Positions 30,760 through 39,162 of a DNA stretch of 64,000 nt are shown here, piece after piece. This DNA is from Bryobacteraceae bacterium (GTDB lineage Bacteria > Acidobacteriota > Terriglobia > Bryobacterales > Bryobacteraceae): the NCBI GenBank assembly GCA_019752335.1, contig JAIEMJ010000032.1, positions 1-64,000 on the forward strand, in the 5' to 3' direction. The translations under genes were made by a program, and so were the position numbers. Below the pieces are notes generated by a model. That model worked only from the letters and a program-made list of their open reading frames with translations, was not told the DNA's origin and searched no databases. Each line of letters opens with the position of its first letter. Positions within the stretch are counted from its first letter, which is position 1.

Positions 30760-31677
30760 TTACTGATCGATCTCCTTTTGCACTTTCGCGAGCTCGACTA
30801 ACAATACCTGTAGCTGCTTGCGATACTCCGCGGCCGGCATCGCCGCTTTGTTGTATTTCAGTTGATCGATGCGTTGCTCCACGTCGTCCCGCTTGCTCAG
30901 TAACTGCTGCTTCGCCGGATCCGCCGCCGACTTCTGCGCCGCGCCCAGGCGTAACAAAGGCGTCCGCGACGCCACTAACCCATGTCCATTGTCCGGCGCC
31001 GGATTGCGCACCGCTTCGCCTTGGCCCGTATCTTCGAGCACGGCGTGCTCCGTGGCGATGCGTTTGCCGCGCTCGTAGTATTGGACGGTCTTCTGGTCGG
31101 CGTAGCGAAACGCTTCCAGCGCCATTACGGTTTCGTTCTTGTCGGCGTCGGCGCCCGCGTCCCGCAGGGCTTCCACCCAGAAACGCGCAAACACCGTGGC
31201 GTTGCGCTCGGTGCCGCTCTTGGTTGCGGCGATTACGACGCGATTCGGCCGCTGCAGCGAAGCGACGGAAGCGCCGCTCGCCGAAGTGGTATTCACCACT
31301 AACTGCTTCTTCGCCTTCACCCGATCCAGTAACGCGGCTAACTCGACGCCCGAAAGATCCGGCCCCGGTAAGTTGATTTTGTAGTCCGTGCCGTCGAACG
31401 TGCCGTGGCCAATCAGCAGCACGACGAGGTTATCGTCCGGCCCCGCGTCCGTGGCAATCTGCGTGAAGGACTCTCGGATCTTGGCTTTCGTCGCCAGGAT
31501 GCCGGAATGCAGAAAGGCTTTCGCGTCGGGCGTTCCGGTCACCAATTTGTGCGCTTCCGTGGCCAGGCCAGCGAAACGTGTCTCGTACTCTGGTTCGCCA
31601 CCTAAGCCCGATACCGTCACGTAAAAGGTCGCGGCCGGCAAGGGCAGGGCGAGCCACAGCAATAAAGTCAGCTTCAT
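30760..31677 (-). CDS. caspase/C13-fold protein with apparently missing catalytic cysteine
   Basis: 305 residues. A signal peptide (MKLTLLLWLALPLPA) leads into a caspase-like alpha/beta domain. LVVLLIGHGTFDG (His91-Gly92) matches the catalytic His strand. LVVNTTSASGAS (about 126-137) sits where the catalytic Cys strand is expected, but has Thr instead of Cys. The C-terminal about 90 residues are charged and helical (coiled coil). The start at 31677 overlaps the vWA gene stop as ATGA, so the longer frame to 31758 is rejected. A non-catalytic binding role is likely if the alignment is right. It is coupled to the vWA gene and the protease gene. Confidence 0.75.
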   Translation of the reverse strand: MKLTLLLWLALPLPAATFYVTVSGLGGEPEYETRFAGLATEAHKLVTGTPDAKAFLHSGILATKAKIRESFTQIATDAGPDDNLVVLLIGHGTFDGTDYKINLPGPDLSGVELAALLDRVKAKKQLVVNTTSASGASVASLQRPNRVVIAATKSGTERNATVFARFWVEALRDAGADADKNETVMALEAFRYADQKTVQYYERGKRIATEHAVLEDTGQGEAVRNPAPDNGHGLVASRTPLLRLGAAQKSAADPAKQQLLSKRDDVEQRIDQLKYNKAAMPAAEYRKQLQVLLVELAKVQKEIDQ

Positions 31678-33935
31678 ACCACGCCCCAGCGGCGCCGCAA
31701 CATCCACTCGGTGGCGCGAATCATGAGAATCAACAGAAAGACGATCGGCAAGTTCCACAGGTCCTTCGCCTCGCGGACCGTAATGCCGGCCTCGGAGTAG
31801 GAGATATCTTTCGCCAACTTACTGGCGTCCGTGCCTCGGTAATAGACGCCGCCCGTTTGCGACGACAGCTTTTCGAGTAACTCGCGGTTTTGCTCGGAGC
31901 CGAAGTTCTCGGCGACCCCGTCTTCGCGCCGGAAGTTGAATAAGTCCGTACCAAGCTCTTCTTCGCCCCGCTTCGCCACGATCTCCGCGACATAGGCGCC
32001 CGGTTTCTCCGCGTCCCAAGTAGCAACATACTGGCCGGCCGACAAGGGCTCGGGCCGCATCTCGACTAACTCCGACGACCCGTCCGGCGACAATACCCGG
32101 GCCTGCACCTGGCCATCCGACACCGGCAGGTAGTTCTTATCCCGTACCTCGGCGCGGATCTGTACCTTCGTCTCGTCGGTAAGCACTTGCTTCGGCGTCG
32201 ACGAAAGTACGCGTGGCGGCGACGAGGTCACCAGCCAGCGCGAAAGCTGATCCCAAAAAACTTCGTGTGATTTGTCTTCGAGCGGCTGCAGCATCTGCCA
32301 ACGCCAGGTACCGGCGGTGGCCAGGATCGCCGTGCGCCCACGTCCGTAATTTTGCGTGGCGAGCAGCGGCTGGCGCTTGCCACCGGCGATGAACTCCGCC
32401 AATACCACCGCGCCAGGCTTCGGCGCGCCCGTCTCCTGATAATTTTCGATTTCGGGTAGCTTCTTCCAGCGCTCGATGTTGGCGTCGGGATTCTCCACCA
32501 AACGCGCGATCAGGCTGTCGCGGCCGCCCACGGCTAACTCCACCTTAGCCCGCTCGCGCTTGAAGGTATCGCGACGGTCGCCGATGGAGACGGGCAGTAA
32601 GTCGAGGAGCCCGGACTTACCCCAACCGCCGTCGGACAAGCCGTTGCGGCCACCCAGGAAGAGGAGTCCGCCGCCGCGGCGATCGACGAATTGCCGGATT
32701 AACTCCTGCTGCGCCGCGGTAAAGTAACCAATTTCCACGCCGCCAATGATCAGGCCCTGGTACTGAAATAAGTCTTCGGCTTTGTCAGGAAAGCCATTTT
32801 CGAGTTCCTTCGGCTCGGCGATCCCTTGCCGGTAAATCTTATTCTGCGTGGTGCGCAGCATGGAAGTGATCGACACGGTTTTATCGTCTTCCATCGCCCG
32901 CCGAATGAACTTATACTCCCACTTCGGCTCGCCTTCAATGTAAAGAATGCGCGGTTTGGTCGCTTCCACGTTCACCAGCCGAGTAACTTGGTTATTCGCC
33001 CGGTTCTCTTCATTTTCGAGCGGCGCCACGCCAATCTGCAGCGCTTTCGGGCCCGCCGGACCGGAATTAAACAGAATACTCTCCGTCTGCGGCTCATTGT
33101 CGGCCTTCAGCACAATAGTCTGCTGGCCCAGGATACGGGTACCGTCACGCAGGGTAATGTTAACTTTGTTCTTGGTATAGCCAGTCTGCCGCAGAGTAAC
33201 TTGCGCCGTAATCCGCGAATCGGCCAACGCCCGGGCCGGCACATCCACCGCGACGATCTCTAAGTCCCGGTCGTACTTCTCACGGCCCAGCCCCACCGTA
33301 TGCACGGGAATGCGACGGCTGCGAACTTCGGACAACGTGGCTAGGTCAATGCCACCTGCGTTGTCGCCGCCGTCGCTGAGGAGGACAATCGCCCCCAGCG
33401 GCACGCTGGCTGACTCGGCCGCCACGCCGCGCAAAGCATCGGACAATCGCGTAGCCGTCTGCGTGCCCTGCACGTCTTCAGCTTTTTCGAGCCGCTCCAA
33501 GGACCGGCCCACCTTATACAGGCGCACCTGGAACTGCTTCTTCAGTTGCTCCAGTAAGCCCGCGTTGAGAATTTCCTTGGCCGTGGCCGCGCGCGTCTTG
33601 CCGCCTTCGTCGGCGATCGACATGCTCTTCGAATCGTCCACCACCACCGCCACCACGTTCTGCTGCGGCTTCAACGTCGCCACTAACAAAGCGGGCTGCC
33701 ATAACAGACTCAGCAGGAGGATCGCCATCAAGGCCTGTAGCGCCCACAGGACGCCGGCCTTCCAACCCTGCACCCGGATTTCGGCGTCCCGGCGCGAACG
33801 GAAGTAAGGCCAAGCCAAACCAGCCGCTACGCCCAGCGCCAGCAACGCCCAGGCCCAAACGGGCCACCCGCCCAACAGGACGAACTGCCCTTTTTCGTAA
33901 ACCCGGGATGGATAACTGAATAAGAATTCGAACAA
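31674..33935 (-). CDS. vWA-domain membrane protein with GATase-like domain
   Basis: 753 residues. Two membrane helices near the N-terminus (about 20-40 and 55-80) are followed by a vWA domain with VVDDSKSMS (about 95-103) and LLSDGGDNAGG. Then come an Ig-like stretch and a class-I-glutamine-amidotransferase-like fold (about 340-560, LYIEGEPKWEYKFIRRAM...GGGLLFLGGRNGLSDGGW). A C-terminal membrane helix (LPIVFLLILMIRATEWML) ends it. The start is TTG at 33935 with AAGGA eight bases before it, overlapping the end of the DUF4159 gene. It belongs with DUF4159 and MoxR in this cluster type. Confidence 0.88.
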   Translation of the reverse strand: MFEFLFSYPSRVYEKGQFVLLGGWPVWAWALLALGVAAGLAWPYFRSRRDAEIRVQGWKAGVLWALQALMAILLLSLLWQPALLVATLKPQQNVVAVVVDDSKSMSIADEGGKTRAATAKEILNAGLLEQLKKQFQVRLYKVGRSLERLEKAEDVQGTQTATRLSDALRGVAAESASVPLGAIVLLSDGGDNAGGIDLATLSEVRSRRIPVHTVGLGREKYDRDLEIVAVDVPARALADSRITAQVTLRQTGYTKNKVNITLRDGTRILGQQTIVLKADNEPQTESILFNSGPAGPKALQIGVAPLENEENRANNQVTRLVNVEATKPRILYIEGEPKWEYKFIRRAMEDDKTVSITSMLRTTQNKIYRQGIAEPKELENGFPDKAEDLFQYQGLIIGGVEIGYFTAAQQELIRQFVDRRGGGLLFLGGRNGLSDGGWGKSGLLDLLPVSIGDRRDTFKRERAKVELAVGGRDSLIARLVENPDANIERWKKLPEIENYQETGAPKPGAVVLAEFIAGGKRQPLLATQNYGRGRTAILATAGTWRWQMLQPLEDKSHEVFWDQLSRWLVTSSPPRVLSSTPKQVLTDETKVQIRAEVRDKNYLPVSDGQVQARVLSPDGSSELVEMRPEPLSAGQYVATWDAEKPGAYVAEIVAKRGEEELGTDLFNFRREDGVAENFGSEQNRELLEKLSSQTGGVYYRGTDASKLAKDISYSEAGITVREAKDLWNLPIVFLLILMIRATEWMLRRRWGVV

Positions 33936-33946
33936 ACTGGGATTCC

Positions 33947-34747
33947 TTAGTGCGTCATCGCGTACATGATGTAATTGATGCCAATCCGATAGGCCAGCGA
34001 CGCATAATGCTCCGGGTACCGGGGCATATCCGCATGCTCCCAGGCGTCACCAATGTCCATGTTGTGGCAGATGCCCACCATCAGGCGCCCCTTGTCATCG
34101 AAAACGCCGCGCCATTTCGCTTCCACGCCATCCTGTTCGTAAGTCTGCCCCGTATAAAACATCACGATGCCCGGAATCTGAAAACGCTCATCCAGGTCAT
34201 ACAGCACATGGAACACCGGCTCTTTGTTGGCCAGATCCACCACTGCCCGGTCCGGGAACACCCGCGACAGCGATTGCAAAAAAATCTCCCATTCGATGGA
34301 GCCATGGAAATCGTCCACCATCAGGAAGCCGCCCTTCAGGAGGTATTCCCGCATCTTGGCGGCCTGTTTCTCATTGAGGTCCCAATGGCCTACTTCGACG
34401 CCGTAGATCCAGGGATGGTTGAAAATCTCGTCCGAGTCGAGGTCCACCACATCTTCCACGCTTCGTACATGGATCCGCGTCAAACGACGGACGCCCTGGA
34501 CGAATTGGCGGTCCGCCTTCGGATAATCGGTGGACCAACTTCCCCTCACCCCCCAATACCCGCCGCCACCGCGGTAAGAAGGGTAGCGCAGGCGGGAGAA
34601 GGTAAACTCCGTCTTCTCATTCGCGTCGGGGGGCGTGATGACGGGGCCGTCCTCATCGTCGAAGCTTCGCCTACCCCTTTGGGCGTAGGTGAGCGAGATG
34701 GCCGCGAAGGCTAGGACGAGCGACAAAATCCAAATTCGAGAGCGCAT
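33947..34747 (-). CDS. DUF4159 family exported protein
   Basis: About 266 residues. A signal peptide (IWILSLVLAFAAISLTYAQ) is followed by a DUF4159 domain: FTFSRLRYPSYRGGGGYWG, WSTDYPKADRQFVQGVRRLT, and a flavodoxin/GATase-like core (LLKGGFLMVDDFHG). ATG at 34747 is preferred to GTG at 34756 because GAGG lies just before it. The gene follows the second MoxR and precedes the vWA/GATase gene by 11 bases. DUF4159 proteins are regular members of MoxR/vWA clusters; their activity is unknown. Confidence 0.87.
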   Translation of the reverse strand: MRSRIWILSLVLAFAAISLTYAQRGRRSFDDEDGPVITPPDANEKTEFTFSRLRYPSYRGGGGYWGVRGSWSTDYPKADRQFVQGVRRLTRIHVRSVEDVVDLDSDEIFNHPWIYGVEVGHWDLNEKQAAKMREYLLKGGFLMVDDFHGSIEWEIFLQSLSRVFPDRAVVDLANKEPVFHVLYDLDERFQIPGIVMFYTGQTYEQDGVEAKWRGVFDDKGRLMVGICHNMDIGDAWEHADMPRYPEHYASLAYRIGINYIMYAMTH

Positions 34748-34841
34748 TTGCCTCACTGATCAACCGCCGGATAGCCTGAGAATATCACGGAGTCCATAAG
34801 GGACAGACGATTGGTTTGGCGAAAGGTTTCCCAGTACTTGG

Positions 34842-35816
34842 CTACAGCGGGACTTCCACTAAGGTAAGGATCTCTTGAATCACGCGTTTAGCCGCTTCCG
34901 GACCTCGCCCCAGCGTGCCGCGCGGATTCACCGTCACCCGGTGCGCGAACACCGGCACCGCCAGGCGCTTCACGTCATCCGGCAGGGCGTACTCGCGGCC
35001 CTGCACCAGCGCCAGCGCTTGCGTGGCCCGGAAAAGGGCCTGCGCGCCGCGCGGACTCACGCCCAACGTGAGCCCCTCGTGACGCCGTGTCCGTTCGACA
35101 ATCGCCAGGATATAGTCGGCCAGCGCGTCGTCGATCGCCACCGTTTCCACCTGCCGCTGCAGCCGCATCAACTCGCCCGTCTCCATCACGGCCCGCCCGC
35201 CGGATGCCGCCCGCGCCGTCCCGCGCAGAATCGCCCTTTCGCTCGCGCGGTCCGGATAGCCGATCTCGAGCTTCATCAGGAAGCGATCCAGTTGGCTTTC
35301 GGGCAACGGGTAAGTGCCGTGGTGCTCCGCCGGGTTCTGCGTGGCGATCACCATGAAGGGCTCTTCCAGCGGATAGGTCCGGGCGTCCACCGTCACCTGA
35401 TGCTCGTTCATCGCCTCCAGCAACGCGGACTGCGTCTTCGGCGTCGCACGGTTAATCTCGTCGGCGAGGAGGAAATTCGTAAACACCGGCCCGCGCTTAA
35501 ACTCGAACTCCGTCGCCTGCGGACTGTAGATCGTCACGCCGATGATGTCGCTTGGCAGCATGTCGCTGGTGCACTGCAAGCGATGAAAGCTGCACCGTAC
35601 CCCGCGCGCCAGCGCCGAGGCCAGCGTGGTTTTACCCACGCCCGGCACATCCTCAATCAGCAGATGCCCCCGCGCCAACAGGCACACCAGCGAAAGACGC
35701 ACCACTTCGTCTTTGCCGCGAATCGTCTCTCCCAACGCGTCTTCCAATTCGCGCAGACGCTCCGGCGGCGGGCCGTCTTCCAGGCTCGCGTTCGAATTAA
35801 GAGGTTTGGTCTCCAT
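34842..35816 (-). CDS. MoxR-family AAA+ ATPase (second)
   Basis: 324 residues. Walker A is EDVPGVGKTTLA (about 55-66), Walker B is FLLADEINR, followed by ATPKTQSALLEAMNE, and sensor 1 is IATQNPAEHHGTYPLPESQLDRFLM. The frame is open to 35873, but ATG at 35816 is used because an extended -10 element lies at 35836-35844 and the extra residues are not part of the family. It is the first gene of the nine-gene minus-strand block. It is only moderately similar to the MoxR at 27455, so not a recent duplicate. Divergent from the ArsR gene. Confidence 0.92.
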   Translation of the reverse strand: METKPLNSNASLEDGPPPERLRELEDALGETIRGKDEVVRLSLVCLLARGHLLIEDVPGVGKTTLASALARGVRCSFHRLQCTSDMLPSDIIGVTIYSPQATEFEFKRGPVFTNFLLADEINRATPKTQSALLEAMNEHQVTVDARTYPLEEPFMVIATQNPAEHHGTYPLPESQLDRFLMKLEIGYPDRASERAILRGTARAASGGRAVMETGELMRLQRQVETVAIDDALADYILAIVERTRRHEGLTLGVSPRGAQALFRATQALALVQGREYALPDDVKRLAVPVFAHRVTVNPRGTLGRGPEAAKRVIQEILTLVEVPL

Positions 35817-35835
35817 GCAGGTAGGGCGTAACCGG

Positions 35836-35844
35836 ATTTTAGCA
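35836..35844 (-). promoter_or_regulatory. extended -10 promoter element for the MoxR/vWA block
   Basis: On the minus strand TGCTAAAAT is a TGn extended -10 with a 5/6 hexamer. The predicted transcription start is near 35829, giving a leader of about 13 bases before the ATG at 35816. No good -35 is visible, as is common with extended -10 sites. Confidence 0.5.
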
Positions 35845-35862
35845 TGCGCTTCCGGCGCGGAT

Positions 35863-35909
35863 TTGACTCTCACGGGAGATAATGCAATACTTCAATAGGT
35901 AGTGAAGTA
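35863..35909 (+). promoter_or_regulatory. ArsR promoter and operator
   Basis: TTGACT (35863-35868), a 17-base spacer and AATACT (35886-35891) form a sigma70-type promoter. It is overlapped by a perfect inverted repeat, TACTTCA (35888-35894) and TGAAGTA (35903-35909), with an 8-base spacer. The repeat ends directly before the ArsR ATG. This geometry is typical of a self-repressing ArsR/SmtB operator released by metal. Confidence 0.65.
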
Positions 35910-36266
35910 ATGAAGGCTCTGGCCGCTGTCCGCAAGTACGAAGTCCCCGCCGCCACTCCCGAGGCGATCGCCCGCGCCGTGCGCATCTTCAAAGCGCTTG
36001 GTGACCCGCCCCGCCTGCGCCTCCTCACCGCCCTCGCCCAAGGCGAACTCTGCGTCTCCGATATTGCCGGACTGGATTCCGACGGGCTCAGCACCGTCTC
36101 GCAACGGCTGCGCGTCCTCCTCGCCGCTGATCTTGTCAGTCGCCGCCGCGATGGCCAGCACATCCTCTACGGCCTGGCCGACGCTCACATCGCCGAATTG
36201 ATTTCGAACGCCCTCGCCCATGCAAGCGAGGGCCTTCCTAAAACCAAAGCCAAAAAAAGGACCTGA
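35910..36266 (+). CDS. ArsR/SmtB-family metal-responsive repressor
   Basis: 118 residues. A winged-helix ArsR domain covers about 22-105, with IFKALGDPPRLRLLTALAQGELCVSDIAG and the recognition helix STVSQRLRVLLAADLVSRRRDG. ELCV resembles the metal-binding ELCVCDL motif of the family but has a single Cys. A His-containing C-terminal helix (ADAHIAELISNALAHASE) could add SmtB-type alpha5 zinc ligands. It is first in a three-gene operon with a His-rich protein (3-base gap) and a Fur-family gene. An inverted repeat sits at its promoter. Zinc or another divalent metal is the likely signal. Confidence 0.88.
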   Translation: MKALAAVRKYEVPAATPEAIARAVRIFKALGDPPRLRLLTALAQGELCVSDIAGLDSDGLSTVSQRLRVLLAADLVSRRRDGQHILYGLADAHIAELISNALAHASEGLPKTKAKKRT

Positions 36267-36269
36267 ACC

Positions 36270-36614
36270 ATGTCTTGCCATACCCACGCCCAACACGATC
36301 ATCAACACGGCGAAGGCTGCGGCCACGTCGCCATCTCCCACGGTGACCACGTCGATTACCTGCACGACGGCCATCTCCATCAAGCCCACCAAGGCCACTA
36401 CGACGAGTGCGCCATTGAGATCTCCGATGTGAATCCCGCCGCCTGCACACCCGCCCACGCCTGCGCCTCCCACGACGCCCGGCACATCCACGGACCCGGC
36501 TGCGGCCATCCCGCCATTCCCCACGGCGACCATGTTGATTACCTCGTGAACGGCCACCTGCACCATCCGCACGGCGACCACTGCGACCACCACGGACCGG
36601 TCACCGTTCTCTAA
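36270..36614 (+). CDS. histidine-rich metal-binding protein with two internal repeats
   Basis: 114 residues, very rich in His with several Cys. Two similar halves each contain G-C-G-H-x-A-I-x-H-G-D-H-V-D-Y-L followed by GHLH, at about residues 16-38 and 76-98. No signal peptide, so probably cytoplasmic. AAGGA lies upstream of the ATG. It lies between an ArsR and a Fur-family gene in one operon, which suggests a metal (probably zinc) buffer or chaperone. From memory, short proteins with HGDHVDYL occur in many bacteria near metal genes, with no established function. Confidence 0.82.
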   Translation: MSCHTHAQHDHQHGEGCGHVAISHGDHVDYLHDGHLHQAHQGHYDECAIEISDVNPAACTPAHACASHDARHIHGPGCGHPAIPHGDHVDYLVNGHLHHPHGDHCDHHGPVTVL

Positions 36615-36622
36615 GGCCCCCT

Positions 36623-37003
36623 ATGGAAAAGCTGGCCACCCGCAGCACTCGTCAACGACGCGCCATCCGTTCGGTCTTCGAACGGCTGGACCGGCCATTG
36701 GGCCCGCAGGACGTGCTGCAGGAGGTCGCGCAGGAGGTGGAGGGCGTGGGCATCGCCACGGTTTACCGGACGATTAACACGCTCTTCGAAGAGGGCGTCC
36801 TGGTAAAGGTCGATCTGCCGGGCGAGTCCTCACGCTATGAGGTCGCGGGCAAGGCCCACCACCACCACTTTCGCTGCCAGCAATGTGCGCAGGTCTTCGA
36901 ACTCGCGGGCTGCCTCAACGTGAAGTCGTTGGTGCCACCCGGCTTCCGCATGACCGGCCACGACATCGTCATCTTCGGCCAATGCGCCGCTTGCGCCCAG
37001 TAG
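36623..37003 (+). CDS. Fur-family repressor, Zur/PerR-like
   Basis: 126 residues. The winged helix (about 7-72) has TRQRRAIRSVFE and GIATVYRTINTLFEEGVL. The dimerisation part has the AHHHHFRCQQC motif (His79-82, Cys85, Cys88), and the second Cys pair at Cys121 and Cys124 completes a structural zinc site. This pattern fits Zur or PerR better than a heme-binding Irr. Being in one operon with ArsR and a His-rich protein points to zinc control; iron or peroxide sensing remains possible. It is the last gene before the inverted-repeat element at 37032. Confidence 0.88.
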   Translation: MEKLATRSTRQRRAIRSVFERLDRPLGPQDVLQEVAQEVEGVGIATVYRTINTLFEEGVLVKVDLPGESSRYEVAGKAHHHHFRCQQCAQVFELAGCLNVKSLVPPGFRMTGHDIVIFGQCAACAQ

Positions 37004-37147: not shown

Positions 37148-37450
37148 TCACGCGTACCGCATTTTCGTTTTTTGCCGCATCCCGCCGACGAATTCGAGGC
37201 CGACGTGGTAATTCATCCCCCGCTGCTCACACCGTCGGACGTTGGCGCTGCCCTGGACCTGATTCGCCAGGCACTCCACCTGCACCAGAGACCGCACCGG
37301 CACCCGTTCCCGGATCACGACGCTGAGCCCTGTATCCGACACATCGCGCGCTTCCGCGTTGCAAAAATGCTGGCCGCCGCGTTCGTCTTCCCAGAAAATA
37401 CGCACGATCCCGGAGATCTGCACTCGTTCGCTGGCTCGCTGGTGGCCCAT
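37148..37450 (-). CDS. PilZ-domain protein
   Basis: 100 residues covering a single PilZ domain. RASERVQISGIVRIFW has the R-x(3)-R arm of the c-di-GMP binding site. ARDVSDTGLSVVI matches the D-x-S-x-x-G motif. GMNYHVGLEFVGG closes the barrel. It could be a stand-alone c-di-GMP effector, though some PilZ proteins do not bind the nucleotide. It lies 33 bases downstream of the HlyD-like gene on the same strand. No ribosome-binding site is obvious before the ATG. Confidence 0.82.
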   Translation of the reverse strand: MGHQRASERVQISGIVRIFWEDERGGQHFCNAEARDVSDTGLSVVIRERVPVRSLVQVECLANQVQGSANVRRCEQRGMNYHVGLEFVGGMRQKTKMRYA

Positions 37451-37483
37451 TTCGCGAATAATCGACAGAACCCAGCGAAAACT

Positions 37484-38692
37484 TCAGGGCCCAGGGCGGA
37501 CCCGCATCCCGTCCCGCAGCGTCAGCTCCGACGGCAGCACCACCCGCGCGCCCTCCGCCAGCCCTTCCAGCACCTCCACGCGGGTCACGCTCGACACCCC
37601 CACCCGCACCGGTTTCCAGCGCAGGACTTCGCCTTCCAGCACGTAAACCCCGGCCTGGCTCCCTTCTCGCCGCAACGCCTCTTTGGGAATCGTCAACGCG
37701 TTCTCCACGACGCTGGCCTGAATAAAGGCATTCACGTTCGTCCCCGGCAGCAGCACCAGCTCCGGATTCTCGATCACGCAAACCACCTCGCCCACCTGCC
37801 GCGTGTTCAGCGCCACGACCCGCGTCGGCATCTGCTCCACGCGGCCCTTCCACGTCTGATCAGGATGCGCATCCCAGGTGATACGCACTGGCTGGCCCGT
37901 CTTGACGCGGCCCAGTTCCGGCTCATCGACGTACACCACCACTTTCAGCTTCGCGATCTGGCCAATCGCCGCCACCTCGCTGCCCGGGCTCAGCCATCCA
38001 CCACGCCGTGCGTCCACCTGGTAAGCGACTCCCCCCACCGGCGCGCGCACCACGGCCAATTCGATCTTGCGCCGGGCCTGTTCGGCCACCGCCTGCGCCT
38101 CCTTCAGACGAGCCTGCGCCACCTGCACGCTGCTGCGGTCCACGAGCCGTCCCCGCCGCTCCTCCCAGGAGCGGATCTGCAACTCCGCCGCCTTCAGCTT
38201 CTGTTGCTGCGGAATCAGCTCCTGCCGCGGCGCTGCGTTCGACTTCACCAGCCCTTCGATCGTCGCCATCTCGCGACGCGCCTCCTCCGCATCTTCGCGC
38301 GCCCGCCGCAAGCCGCTCTCGATCTCGGCCAACTCGACGCCCCTACCGCCCTGTTCGAGCCCGGCGATCTCGGCCCGCACCTGCTCGATGCGCGCCTCGG
38401 CCGACGCCAACTCCCCCCGCGCCTCCCGCGCATCCAGCGTCACCAGCACGGCGCCCTTGCTCACGCTCTGCCCGGCCTTCACTGCCACCTCAGCCACTAA
38501 CCCCTCGCGCTCCGCGCGCGCCAGCGCCCACTCCACCGGCTCCGCTTTGCCGTTGGTGGAAAGCACGCTCTCCACGCGTTGCCGCTCCGCGCGCGTCAGC
38601 GCGACCTCGGGTAGCGCGTTCGCTTGCCCATACCACCACCAGCCGGCCGCCGCCACGGCTAACCCGCCTACCAACCACCCAATTCGCTTCAA
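37484..38692 (-). CDS. HlyD/RND-type periplasmic adaptor (membrane fusion protein)
   Basis: 402 residues. An N-terminal membrane anchor (MKRIGWLVGGLAVAAAGWWWYG) is followed by a lipoyl-like half (EGLVAEVAVKAGQSVSKGAVLVTLD), an alpha-helical hairpin (about 90-190), the returning lipoyl half (VRAPVGGVAYQVDARRGGWLSPGSEVAAIG) and beta-barrel domains. The start is TTG at 38692: it overlaps the upstream stop and has a perfect AAGGAG five bases away, while the longer frame lacks the signal. No permease, ATPase or outer-membrane factor gene is adjacent, so the partner must be elsewhere. Confidence 0.88.
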   Translation of the reverse strand: MKRIGWLVGGLAVAAAGWWWYGQANALPEVALTRAERQRVESVLSTNGKAEPVEWALARAEREGLVAEVAVKAGQSVSKGAVLVTLDAREARGELASAEARIEQVRAEIAGLEQGGRGVELAEIESGLRRAREDAEEARREMATIEGLVKSNAAPRQELIPQQQKLKAAELQIRSWEERRGRLVDRSSVQVAQARLKEAQAVAEQARRKIELAVVRAPVGGVAYQVDARRGGWLSPGSEVAAIGQIAKLKVVVYVDEPELGRVKTGQPVRITWDAHPDQTWKGRVEQMPTRVVALNTRQVGEVVCVIENPELVLLPGTNVNAFIQASVVENALTIPKEALRREGSQAGVYVLEGEVLRWKPVRVGVSSVTRVEVLEGLAEGARVVLPSELTLRDGMRVRPGP

Positions 38693-39162
38693 GCTGACTC
38701 CTTGCAATACTCGTACAGCAACCGCCATTCGGTGAGTTGCCGTTCGCGCGCCTCGCGCTCTTCGGCGCTGCCCGGCCGCGCCCGCCCACACTCAGTGACG
38801 AACGCCGCTGGATCCCAGTTGCCGTAAATCTCGCCGAGCGCCGCGTGTACCGGATGCCGCCCCACACGCCGCAGCCAGTAATTGGCGTTCGCCGCATCCG
38901 GCTCCTGGCGATGGACGATCGCGTGCCAGTAGCTGCCCTCCACGCTCGGGTCGTCCTGCGACACCGCGTGCGCCTCTTCCCAGCAGCCGAAGTACAGCCA
39001 GAGCCCGGCCAGGGCTCCGCGCGGCGCCCGCGCCCCGGGGAATAGCTCTTCGGCGCTGTAGTCCGCCAACAGTTGTTTCACCTGCGCGTCGCCGTGCCCA
39101 TGCTTCACCAAGGCCGGCACCCGATCCGGCGCCGCGGCGAGCAACGCCGCCGCGATGCTCAT
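38689..39162 (-). CDS. conserved hypothetical protein
   Basis: 157 residues, no signal or membrane segment. Recognisable features are SYWHAIVHRQEPDAANANYWLRRVGRHP (about 81-108) and a charged helical C-terminus (SAEEREARERQLTEWRLLYEYC). I recall similar acidobacterial and proteobacterial proteins with the HAIVHRQEPD...YWFRRVG motif but no function for them. Its start overlaps the zinc-ribbon gene stop (ATGA), and its stop overlaps the HlyD start. The conserved His, Arg and Trp suggest an enzyme or binding protein. Confidence 0.75.
   Translation of the reverse strand: MSIAAALLAAAPDRVPALVKHGHGDAQVKQLLADYSAEELFPGARAPRGALAGLWLYFGCWEEAHAVSQDDPSVEGSYWHAIVHRQEPDAANANYWLRRVGRHPVHAALGEIYGNWDPAAFVTECGRARPGSAEEREARERQLTEWRLLYEYCKESA

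Follow-up and report, generated by a model that had tools for sequence, protein, structure and literature searches.

A compact operon of an SmtB-type repressor, a two-repeat histidine-rich protein and a Fur-family regulator in Bryobacteraceae with a predicted response to zinc excess

In the 64,000-nucleotide stretch of DNA of a Bryobacteraceae bacterium analysed here (positions 1 to 64,000 of contig JAIEMJ010000032.1, assembly GCA_019752335.1; referred to as the window), the genes for an ArsR/SmtB-family metalloregulator, a two-repeat His/Cys-rich protein and a Fur-family regulator follow each other on one strand. The trio is a conserved compact regulatory operon, and its most interesting part is the unnamed zinc-linked protein family to which the middle gene belongs. 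We consider it fairly probable that the three genes form an autoregulated zinc-excess operon, in which zinc would lift the SmtB-type repression and a buffer and an uptake-repressing Fur-family protein would therefore be produced together. The observations that carry this reading are the gene order, the single exact putative operator in the genome, the zinc-site ligands of the repressor, the recurrence of the trio in other genomes and the association with zinc genes.

Genome sets and sequence comparisons

Two sets of loci were used for the comparisons. The family set was drawn from 150 genomes of the window's family, in 39 of which the His-rich gene was found, at 41 places. The wider set consisted of the best 80 of at least 552 confirmed His-rich loci, which were obtained in one scan of a prokaryote genome collection. 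The two sets overlap in two genomes (L043/L125 and L066/L131). For the repressor, 60 ArsR rows were drawn from 59 loci with both an ArsR and a His-rich gene, and for operator counts the 59 upstream regions were reduced to 52 by removal of near-identical ones. In the alignment of the Fur-family proteins rows of at most 100 aa were dropped, and the counts refer to the 32 rows from the window's family. Gene neighbourhoods were inspected for 20 Fur relatives not linked to the His-rich gene, which are a chosen subset of 47 places.

Organization of the operon and its promoter

The three genes are located on the plus strand in the order ArsR/SmtB-family metalloregulator (35910-36266, 118 aa; Pfam HTH_5), two-repeat His/Cys-rich protein (36270-36614, 114 aa; no Pfam or NCBIfam family) and Fur-family regulator of a divergent subfamily (36623-37003, 126 aa; Pfam FUR), separated by intergenic gaps of 3 bp and 8 bp, respectively. 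They are presumably read as a single transcript. A predicted sigma-70-type promoter was assigned by eye on the same strand at 35863-35891, with TTGACT at 35863-35868, a 17-bp spacer and AATACT at 35886-35891. It is overlapped by a perfect inverted repeat, TACTTCA-N8-TGAAGTA (35888-35909), the 7-bp arms of which start within the -10 element and end directly before the ATG of the first gene, and which is on sequence grounds the predicted ArsR operator. Both the gene order on one strand and the perfect repeat over the -10 element had been proposed in a sequence-only reading of the window and were borne out here by the open reading frames, the Pfam matches and the positions of the repeat. Furthermore, in the same-genus locus L114 the TTGAC element, the 17-bp spacing and ATGCAATACTTCAA are all kept, as is the window's version of the dyad, ATGCAATACTTCAA..AGTGAAGTAATGAA.

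On the upstream side, a MoxR-type AAA ATPase, a DUF4159 protein (both terms as in Pfam) and a 753-aa protein are encoded in a row on the minus strand (31674-35873), divergent from the operon, and the MoxR gene is found upstream in L114 too (95% identity). On the downstream side, genes for a PilZ-domain protein and an HlyD/CusB-type membrane-fusion protein (Pfam) converge on the operon (37148-38791, minus strand). The HlyD/CusB-type gene is probably unrelated to the operon, since no match to its product was found in the 10.5 kb around the L114 trio.

A predicted zinc-responsive repressor and its operator

The window ArsR protein matched the Pfam model HTH_5 with 33.8 bits (cut-off 22) and the NCBIfam model HTH_metalloreg with 78 bits (cut-off 55), and its best solved relative was SmtB (E 4.8e-18). 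The SmtB residues D104, H106, H117 and E120, which we take to be the alpha-5 zinc ligands, align with Asp, His, His and Glu of the window protein, in which the alpha-5 site is complete. These columns are also highly conserved among the 60 ArsR rows from loci with a His-rich gene, with D in 60, H in 59, H in 59 and E in 56 of them. The complete zinc-sensor site supports the earlier description of this protein as a metal-responsive repressor. The alpha-3N site, which consists of an N-terminal Cys and a Cys in the alpha-3 region, is incomplete in the window protein: the Cys of the motif ELCVSD is there and the N-terminal Cys, present in 42 of the 60 relatives, is missing, and therefore the second, SmtB-like site has probably been lost. 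In CzrA, the alpha-5 site alone suffices. We predict that the window ArsR protein is a Zn(II)-responsive repressor with zinc as its likely inducer.

The 7.2-Mb genome contains the core of the dyad, ACTTCA-N8-TGAAGT (35889-35908), at this place and in no further exact copy, and a backward-read control contains it 0 times. With up to one mismatch allowed, 7 places were found in the genome compared with 16 in the control, so the mismatched copies are not above chance. Given that the exact core is unique and that mismatched copies do not exceed the control, the window repressor may govern its own operon alone.

All 4-base dyads in the 52 non-redundant upstream regions were enumerated. TTGA-8-TCAA was found in 9 and TTCA-8-TGAA in 8 of them, while the best dyad in shuffled sequences reached a mean of 4.0 and a maximum of 5 (30 shuffles); some GC-rich words also stood at 6-8 in the same enumeration. 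The combined pattern TTSA-N8-TSAA, picked after the enumeration had been seen, is present upstream of the ArsR gene in 15 of the 52 loci, with a mean of 0.22 and a maximum of 2 in 300 block shuffles. The sequence TTGAACAGTTGTTCAA, which is carried by relatives, presumably resembles the cyanobacterial smt operator. Within the family set, the exact dyad was detected at 11 of the 20 loci with an ArsR gene upstream of the His-rich gene versus 1 of the 21 without; with one mismatch allowed, the counts were 18 of 20 versus 8 of 21, and seven ArsR-less loci other than L147 have a one-mismatch dyad. Judged by eye, a few bases separate the -10 element from the dyad downstream of it in close relatives, and in L130, where the ArsR gene is downstream of the His-rich gene, a one-mismatch dyad precedes both genes. 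The operator geometry thus recurs in relatives.

The His/Cys-rich protein as a candidate zinc buffer

The middle gene encodes a protein with 27 His and 7 Cys residues in 114 aa. The motif HGDHVDYL, the duplication of which had been pointed out from the sequence alone, is present at residues 24 and 85, and the two halves of the protein are identical at 24 of 53 positions at an offset of 61, compared with 18 in the best of 2000 shuffles. No Pfam or NCBIfam model matched up to E 1, and no paper describing the family was recognised in the open-access literature searched. An assignment as a metallothionein was rejected on the basis of the 7 Cys in 114 aa and of the missing model match. Among 70 sequences 24 columns are invariant, many of them His and Cys, the others including Gly, Pro, Tyr, Val, Leu and Asp.

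An AlphaFold2 model of the protein (mean pLDDT 84.7, pTM 0.76) shows two four-stranded beta units. Comparison of this model with the PDB gave no Foldseek match at E<=0.001, and a second fold comparison gave none at Z>=2. A missing PDB match does not by itself prove a new fold. The histidine triad domain of PhtA (2cs7), a zinc-binding fold by its description, surfaced in the fold search and was rejected as a fold relative (Foldseek E 9.4, TM 0.14 by query; not significant).

In the loci examined, the His-rich gene is often accompanied by genes for SmtB-type repressors, heavy-metal ATPases or zinc importers. ZnuA/ZnuB, ZIP, COG0523 or heavy-metal ATPase profile matches were found in the flanks of 24 of the best 80 loci, which is a raw count without a background rate that includes partial matches and in which one example per class was checked with Pfam. 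Additionally, an annotated zinc ABC transporter adjoins the His-rich gene on a Paraburkholderia plasmid. The metal context suspected for this protein is upheld by these neighbours. We predict the His-rich protein to be a cytosolic zinc buffer or chaperone, with buffering as its probable activity.

A metallochaperone or delivery partner of an exporter or of a COG0523 GTPase, instead of a bulk buffer, appears rather unlikely to us. Such a role would fit the divergent, export-type heavy-metal ATPase genes that adjoin 19 of the 41 family loci and the COG0523 genes near the His-rich gene in L043, L127 and L130, and the invariant or nearly invariant non-ligand positions (G, Y, L, N-P and T-P) together with the confident model suggest specific surfaces. 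However, no transporter gene directly adjoins the His-rich gene in the trio, and 27 His and 7 Cys residues would suggest the binding of several ions per molecule, which points to the buffer.

On a Rhodococcus plasmid, a 150-bp gene (L202:3983-4132; NZ_AP026692.1 335596-335745) that codes for a one-repeat relative is annotated as 'zinc transporter permease', a label that is implausible because the gene is only 150 bp long.

The Fur-family regulator

The third protein matched the Pfam model FUR (PF01475) with 81.8 bits (cut-off 23.1). Both structural Cys pairs, i.e. the Cys4 site, are conserved throughout the 32 rows from the window's family, an extra Cys at residue 97 and a Fur-type Glu before the HHHH stretch are likewise invariant (32 of 32 each), and a later His is kept in the same 32 rows. 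The Glu stands two residues earlier than the position of the FurB Cys before the His stretch. This FurB Cys, which we assume to have a role in the sensory site, aligns with Ala in the window protein, and for this reason the latter is not a canonical Zur. A Cys-containing N2OS sensory site is given for EcZur, MtZur and ScZur in PMC6103462. The name Zur used in the sequence-only reading could not be retained: apart from the absent Zur-type Cys, the NCBIfam Zur equivalog PRK11639 scored 17.2 bits against a cut-off of 167, and the assignment stands at the level of the Fur family. Among solved structures, a ferric Fur scored highest (64.4 bits), closely followed by M. tuberculosis FurB (63.3 bits), and the best NCBIfam match is a manganese PerR model at 62.6 bits, below its cut-off of 200. 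The other invariant Cys, at residue 97, may contribute to an alternative metal site.

Close relatives of the Fur protein were found in 41 of the 150 family genomes. In L168 the Fur gene is located directly upstream of genes for CbiM, an ABC ATPase and a COG0523 protein, and in L190 it is divergent from the genes for CbiM and an ABC ATPase, and the opposite strand carries a COG0523 gene close by. These links, and the similar run that follows the His-rich and ArsR genes in L130, suggest a divalent-metal uptake target. Fur relatives were also found beside NikR in L161 (by Pfam) and L162 (by tblastn), and 17 of the 20 unlinked Fur relatives examined had no recognised metal gene nearby. Therefore, the uptake target has to be treated with caution. 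No ABC-3 zinc permease was detected in the genome from which the window comes. This genome has a single CbiM gene and, about 4 kb upstream of it, a NikR-like gene, the product of which is 58% identical to the NikR of L161, and moreover one ZIP match above and one below the cut-off, two cation-efflux matches and eight P-type ATPase matches. Among the ABC-3, CbiM and ZIP candidates of this genome, no zinc-importer target of the Fur protein was identified. We predict that the protein, when loaded with metal, represses metal uptake, its presumed targets being uptake genes for zinc or for another, related divalent metal.

No convincing Fur box was detected in the window promoter, where the best site agreed with a 19-bp Fur box at 11 of 19 positions (shuffle P 0.18). 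Scores of 8-13 of 19 were obtained for the seven further trio promoters, with L119 at P 0.003. Of the 54 promoters scored in all, three gave P<0.01, namely that of L119 and, in L136, those of the ArsR and Fur genes. A Fur box in trio promoters was not accepted.

By eye, an AT-rich AATGA stretch was noticed in the CbiM promoters of L168, L187, L188 and L190, the genomes of which carry the Fur gene. It was not seen by eye in L184, L185, L189 and L130, which have no close Fur relative, or in L186, which has one. The Fur-box scores of the CbiM promoters of L168, L187, L188 and L190 are weak (P 0.04-0.22), that of L186 is 8 of 19, and the stretch is a lead only.

It is possible, and in our view improbable rather than probable, that the Fur protein senses another signal, such as nickel, cobalt, manganese, iron or peroxide, and that the operon links zinc excess to a different metal. 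The Fur-type Glu in place of a Zur-type Cys before the HHHH stretch, the NikR neighbours, the adjoining CbiM genes of L168 and L190, which are modelled as cobalt transporters, and the manganese PerR model as best, sub-threshold match would all agree with this explanation. Against it, the CbiM/ABC-ATPase/COG0523 run of L130 also bears His-rich and SmtB-type genes, the invariant Cys near the regulatory region would fit a thiophilic metal better than manganese or iron, and the Fur gene co-occurs strongly with the His-rich gene.

Recurrence of the trio

The complete trio was found at 8 of the 41 family loci, namely the window's own, L114, L117, L119, L128, L137, L138 and L144, which belong to three genera. 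In L139, where the His-rich and Fur genes are present, no ArsR gene was found in the 500 bases upstream. An ArsR gene lies upstream of the His-rich gene at 20 of the 41 family loci (19 identified by script, and L114 read from the sequence), and 21 are without it. A Fur gene lies directly downstream at 9 of the 41, none of which has a divergent heavy-metal ATPase gene, and this ATPase gave no match in the 20 neighbourhoods chosen around unlinked Fur relatives. Among the best 80 loci of the collection, an ArsR gene is directly upstream in 40 (40 without) and a Fur gene directly downstream in 6 (74 without). Five of these 80 loci carry the complete trio, all of them in Planctomycetota (L036, L039, L047, L050 and L058); a divergent ZIP gene is present in four of the five, and the sequence of L039 ends there. 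In L057, an actinobacterial MAG, the His-rich and Fur genes are accompanied by no ArsR gene. The neighbourhood conservation that the sequence-only reading had put forward as a check was found, as the trio recurs both in the window's family and in Planctomycetota.

The His-rich gene and a close Fur relative also co-occur at the level of genomes. Both were found in 29 of the 150 family genomes and only one of them in 10 and 12, respectively (Fisher P 2e-13), and counted by genus (n=76) both were found in 14 and only one in 7 and 3 (P 8e-8), with P values that ignore phylogeny. The genomes of L154 and L155 have the Fur gene, but no His-rich gene was detected in them. A chance neighbourhood of an ordinary ArsR locus with a small gene and a Fur gene that have nothing to do with it is very improbable: the three genes do occur apart elsewhere, but are separated here by gaps of only 3 and 8 bp, recur as a trio in three family genera and in Planctomycetota and show the His-rich/Fur co-occurrence across genomes.

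In a tree of 47 Fur proteins, a branch with a length of 7.6 changes per column leads to the six from Planctomycetota. Because these proteins are very distant and are without the conserved later His, the trio has probably come together on at least two occasions; their independent recruitment is deduced, since long branches make the placement of the Planctomycetota proteins unsure.

A run of genes in L130 (132-5344, minus strand) comprises the His-rich, ArsR, CbiM, ABC-ATPase and COG0523 genes and is divergent from a heavy-metal ATPase gene. It possibly encodes an ECF importer for zinc (or cobalt) that is controlled by the SmtB-type protein.

Comparison with known systems

An operon that combines regulators of opposite sign is already known from mycobacteria, namely smtB-zur. 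In Goethe et al. 2020 (PMC7174638), a survey by BLASTN with the M. smegmatis sequence, to which distant versions were beyond reach, detected this operon in mycobacteria and a small number of further actinobacteria only. In the same paper, the M. smegmatis operon is described as co-regulated by both proteins, with Zur binding the operon promoter and with zinc-independent expression, and PMC6103462 reports for mycobacteria and C. diphtheriae that zur shares a transcript with an smtB-like gene and is induced when zinc is high. The two arrangements have in common an SmtB-type zinc-excess sensor, predicted in the case of the window, and a Fur-family regulator, with the SmtB gene first; in the smtB-zur operon no His-rich gene lies between the two regulators. 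Moreover, M. smegmatis Zur binds its operon promoter, while the window promoter has no convincing Fur box and the window Fur protein is without the Zur-type Cys.

A second relative is the cyanobacterial smtB/smtA system, in which the metallothionein gene smtA is repressed by SmtB, as given by a reference title in PMC6103462. An SmtB-type repressor with alpha-5 ligands is common to both, and a small metal-binding protein would be expected under the control of the window repressor. In contrast to smtA, the candidate buffer of the window is dominated by His (27 His, 7 Cys), has two predicted beta units and no Pfam or NCBIfam match, and the repressor and buffer genes lie on the same strand in the window. 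His-rich stretches are also known as parts of COG0523 proteins, commonly near the C-terminus, as described in Haas 2009 (PMC2770081). Loci of the COG0523/ZigA type have a genomic link with zinc transport in common with the His-rich loci, whereas the window protein has no GTPase domain. Further papers cited with the known relatives are PMC2630230 and PMC10393844.

Proposed mechanism of the zinc-excess operon

At low zinc, the SmtB-type protein would occupy the dyad over the -10 element and the start region, and the operon would be shut. At rising zinc, Zn(II) would occupy the alpha-5 site and the repressor would leave the dyad. The derepression would have three products: more repressor, which would make the response self-limiting; the two-repeat His/Cys protein, which would bind surplus cytosolic zinc and lower the free zinc; and the Fur-family protein, the metal-loaded form of which would repress uptake of zinc or a related divalent metal. 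In the sequence-only reading, one operon may set both limits around a metal buffer. This part was not supported; a recognisable operator is present for the ArsR protein only, and no convincing Fur box was detected in the window promoter. An excess-induced operon with two outputs, the buffer and a probable uptake repressor, is the more economical explanation.

More tentatively, and with a little less than even confidence, we propose that the His-rich gene founds an unnamed, widespread family of folded His/Cys zinc proteins, zinc buffers of a non-metallothionein kind with a fold not yet represented in the PDB, which would have come under SmtB control repeatedly and have been joined independently, at least twice, to different Fur regulators, coupling zinc storage to the shut-down of uptake. 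The occurrence of the trio in the window's family as well as in Planctomycetota would indicate a wider distribution and more than one origin of the two-regulator design. If the protein is a buffer, the His-rich family (at least 552 loci) could be a common bacterial way to hold surplus zinc without metallothionein.

Further observations in the neighbourhoods

Between the genes for the ABC ATPase and the COG0523 protein, a small gene with the motif KTLGQVVVCxGCCCG was observed in L168 (6740-7258), L186 (1767-2192) and L187 (1895-2338); the L168 copy had no Pfam or NCBIfam family match. Finally, a possible ATT start codon was noticed upstream of the divergent heavy-metal ATPase in L122, L123, L126, L129, L132 and L142 (also L147 and L121). 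The putative start is in the frame ATT-AAC after a GAGGA-type ribosome site. In 6 of the 8 loci, no ATG, GTG or TTG is present between the preceding in-frame stop codon and the GMDC motif; the exceptions are L147, with only a GTG just before GMDC, and L121, which has an ATG exactly at the position of the ATT.
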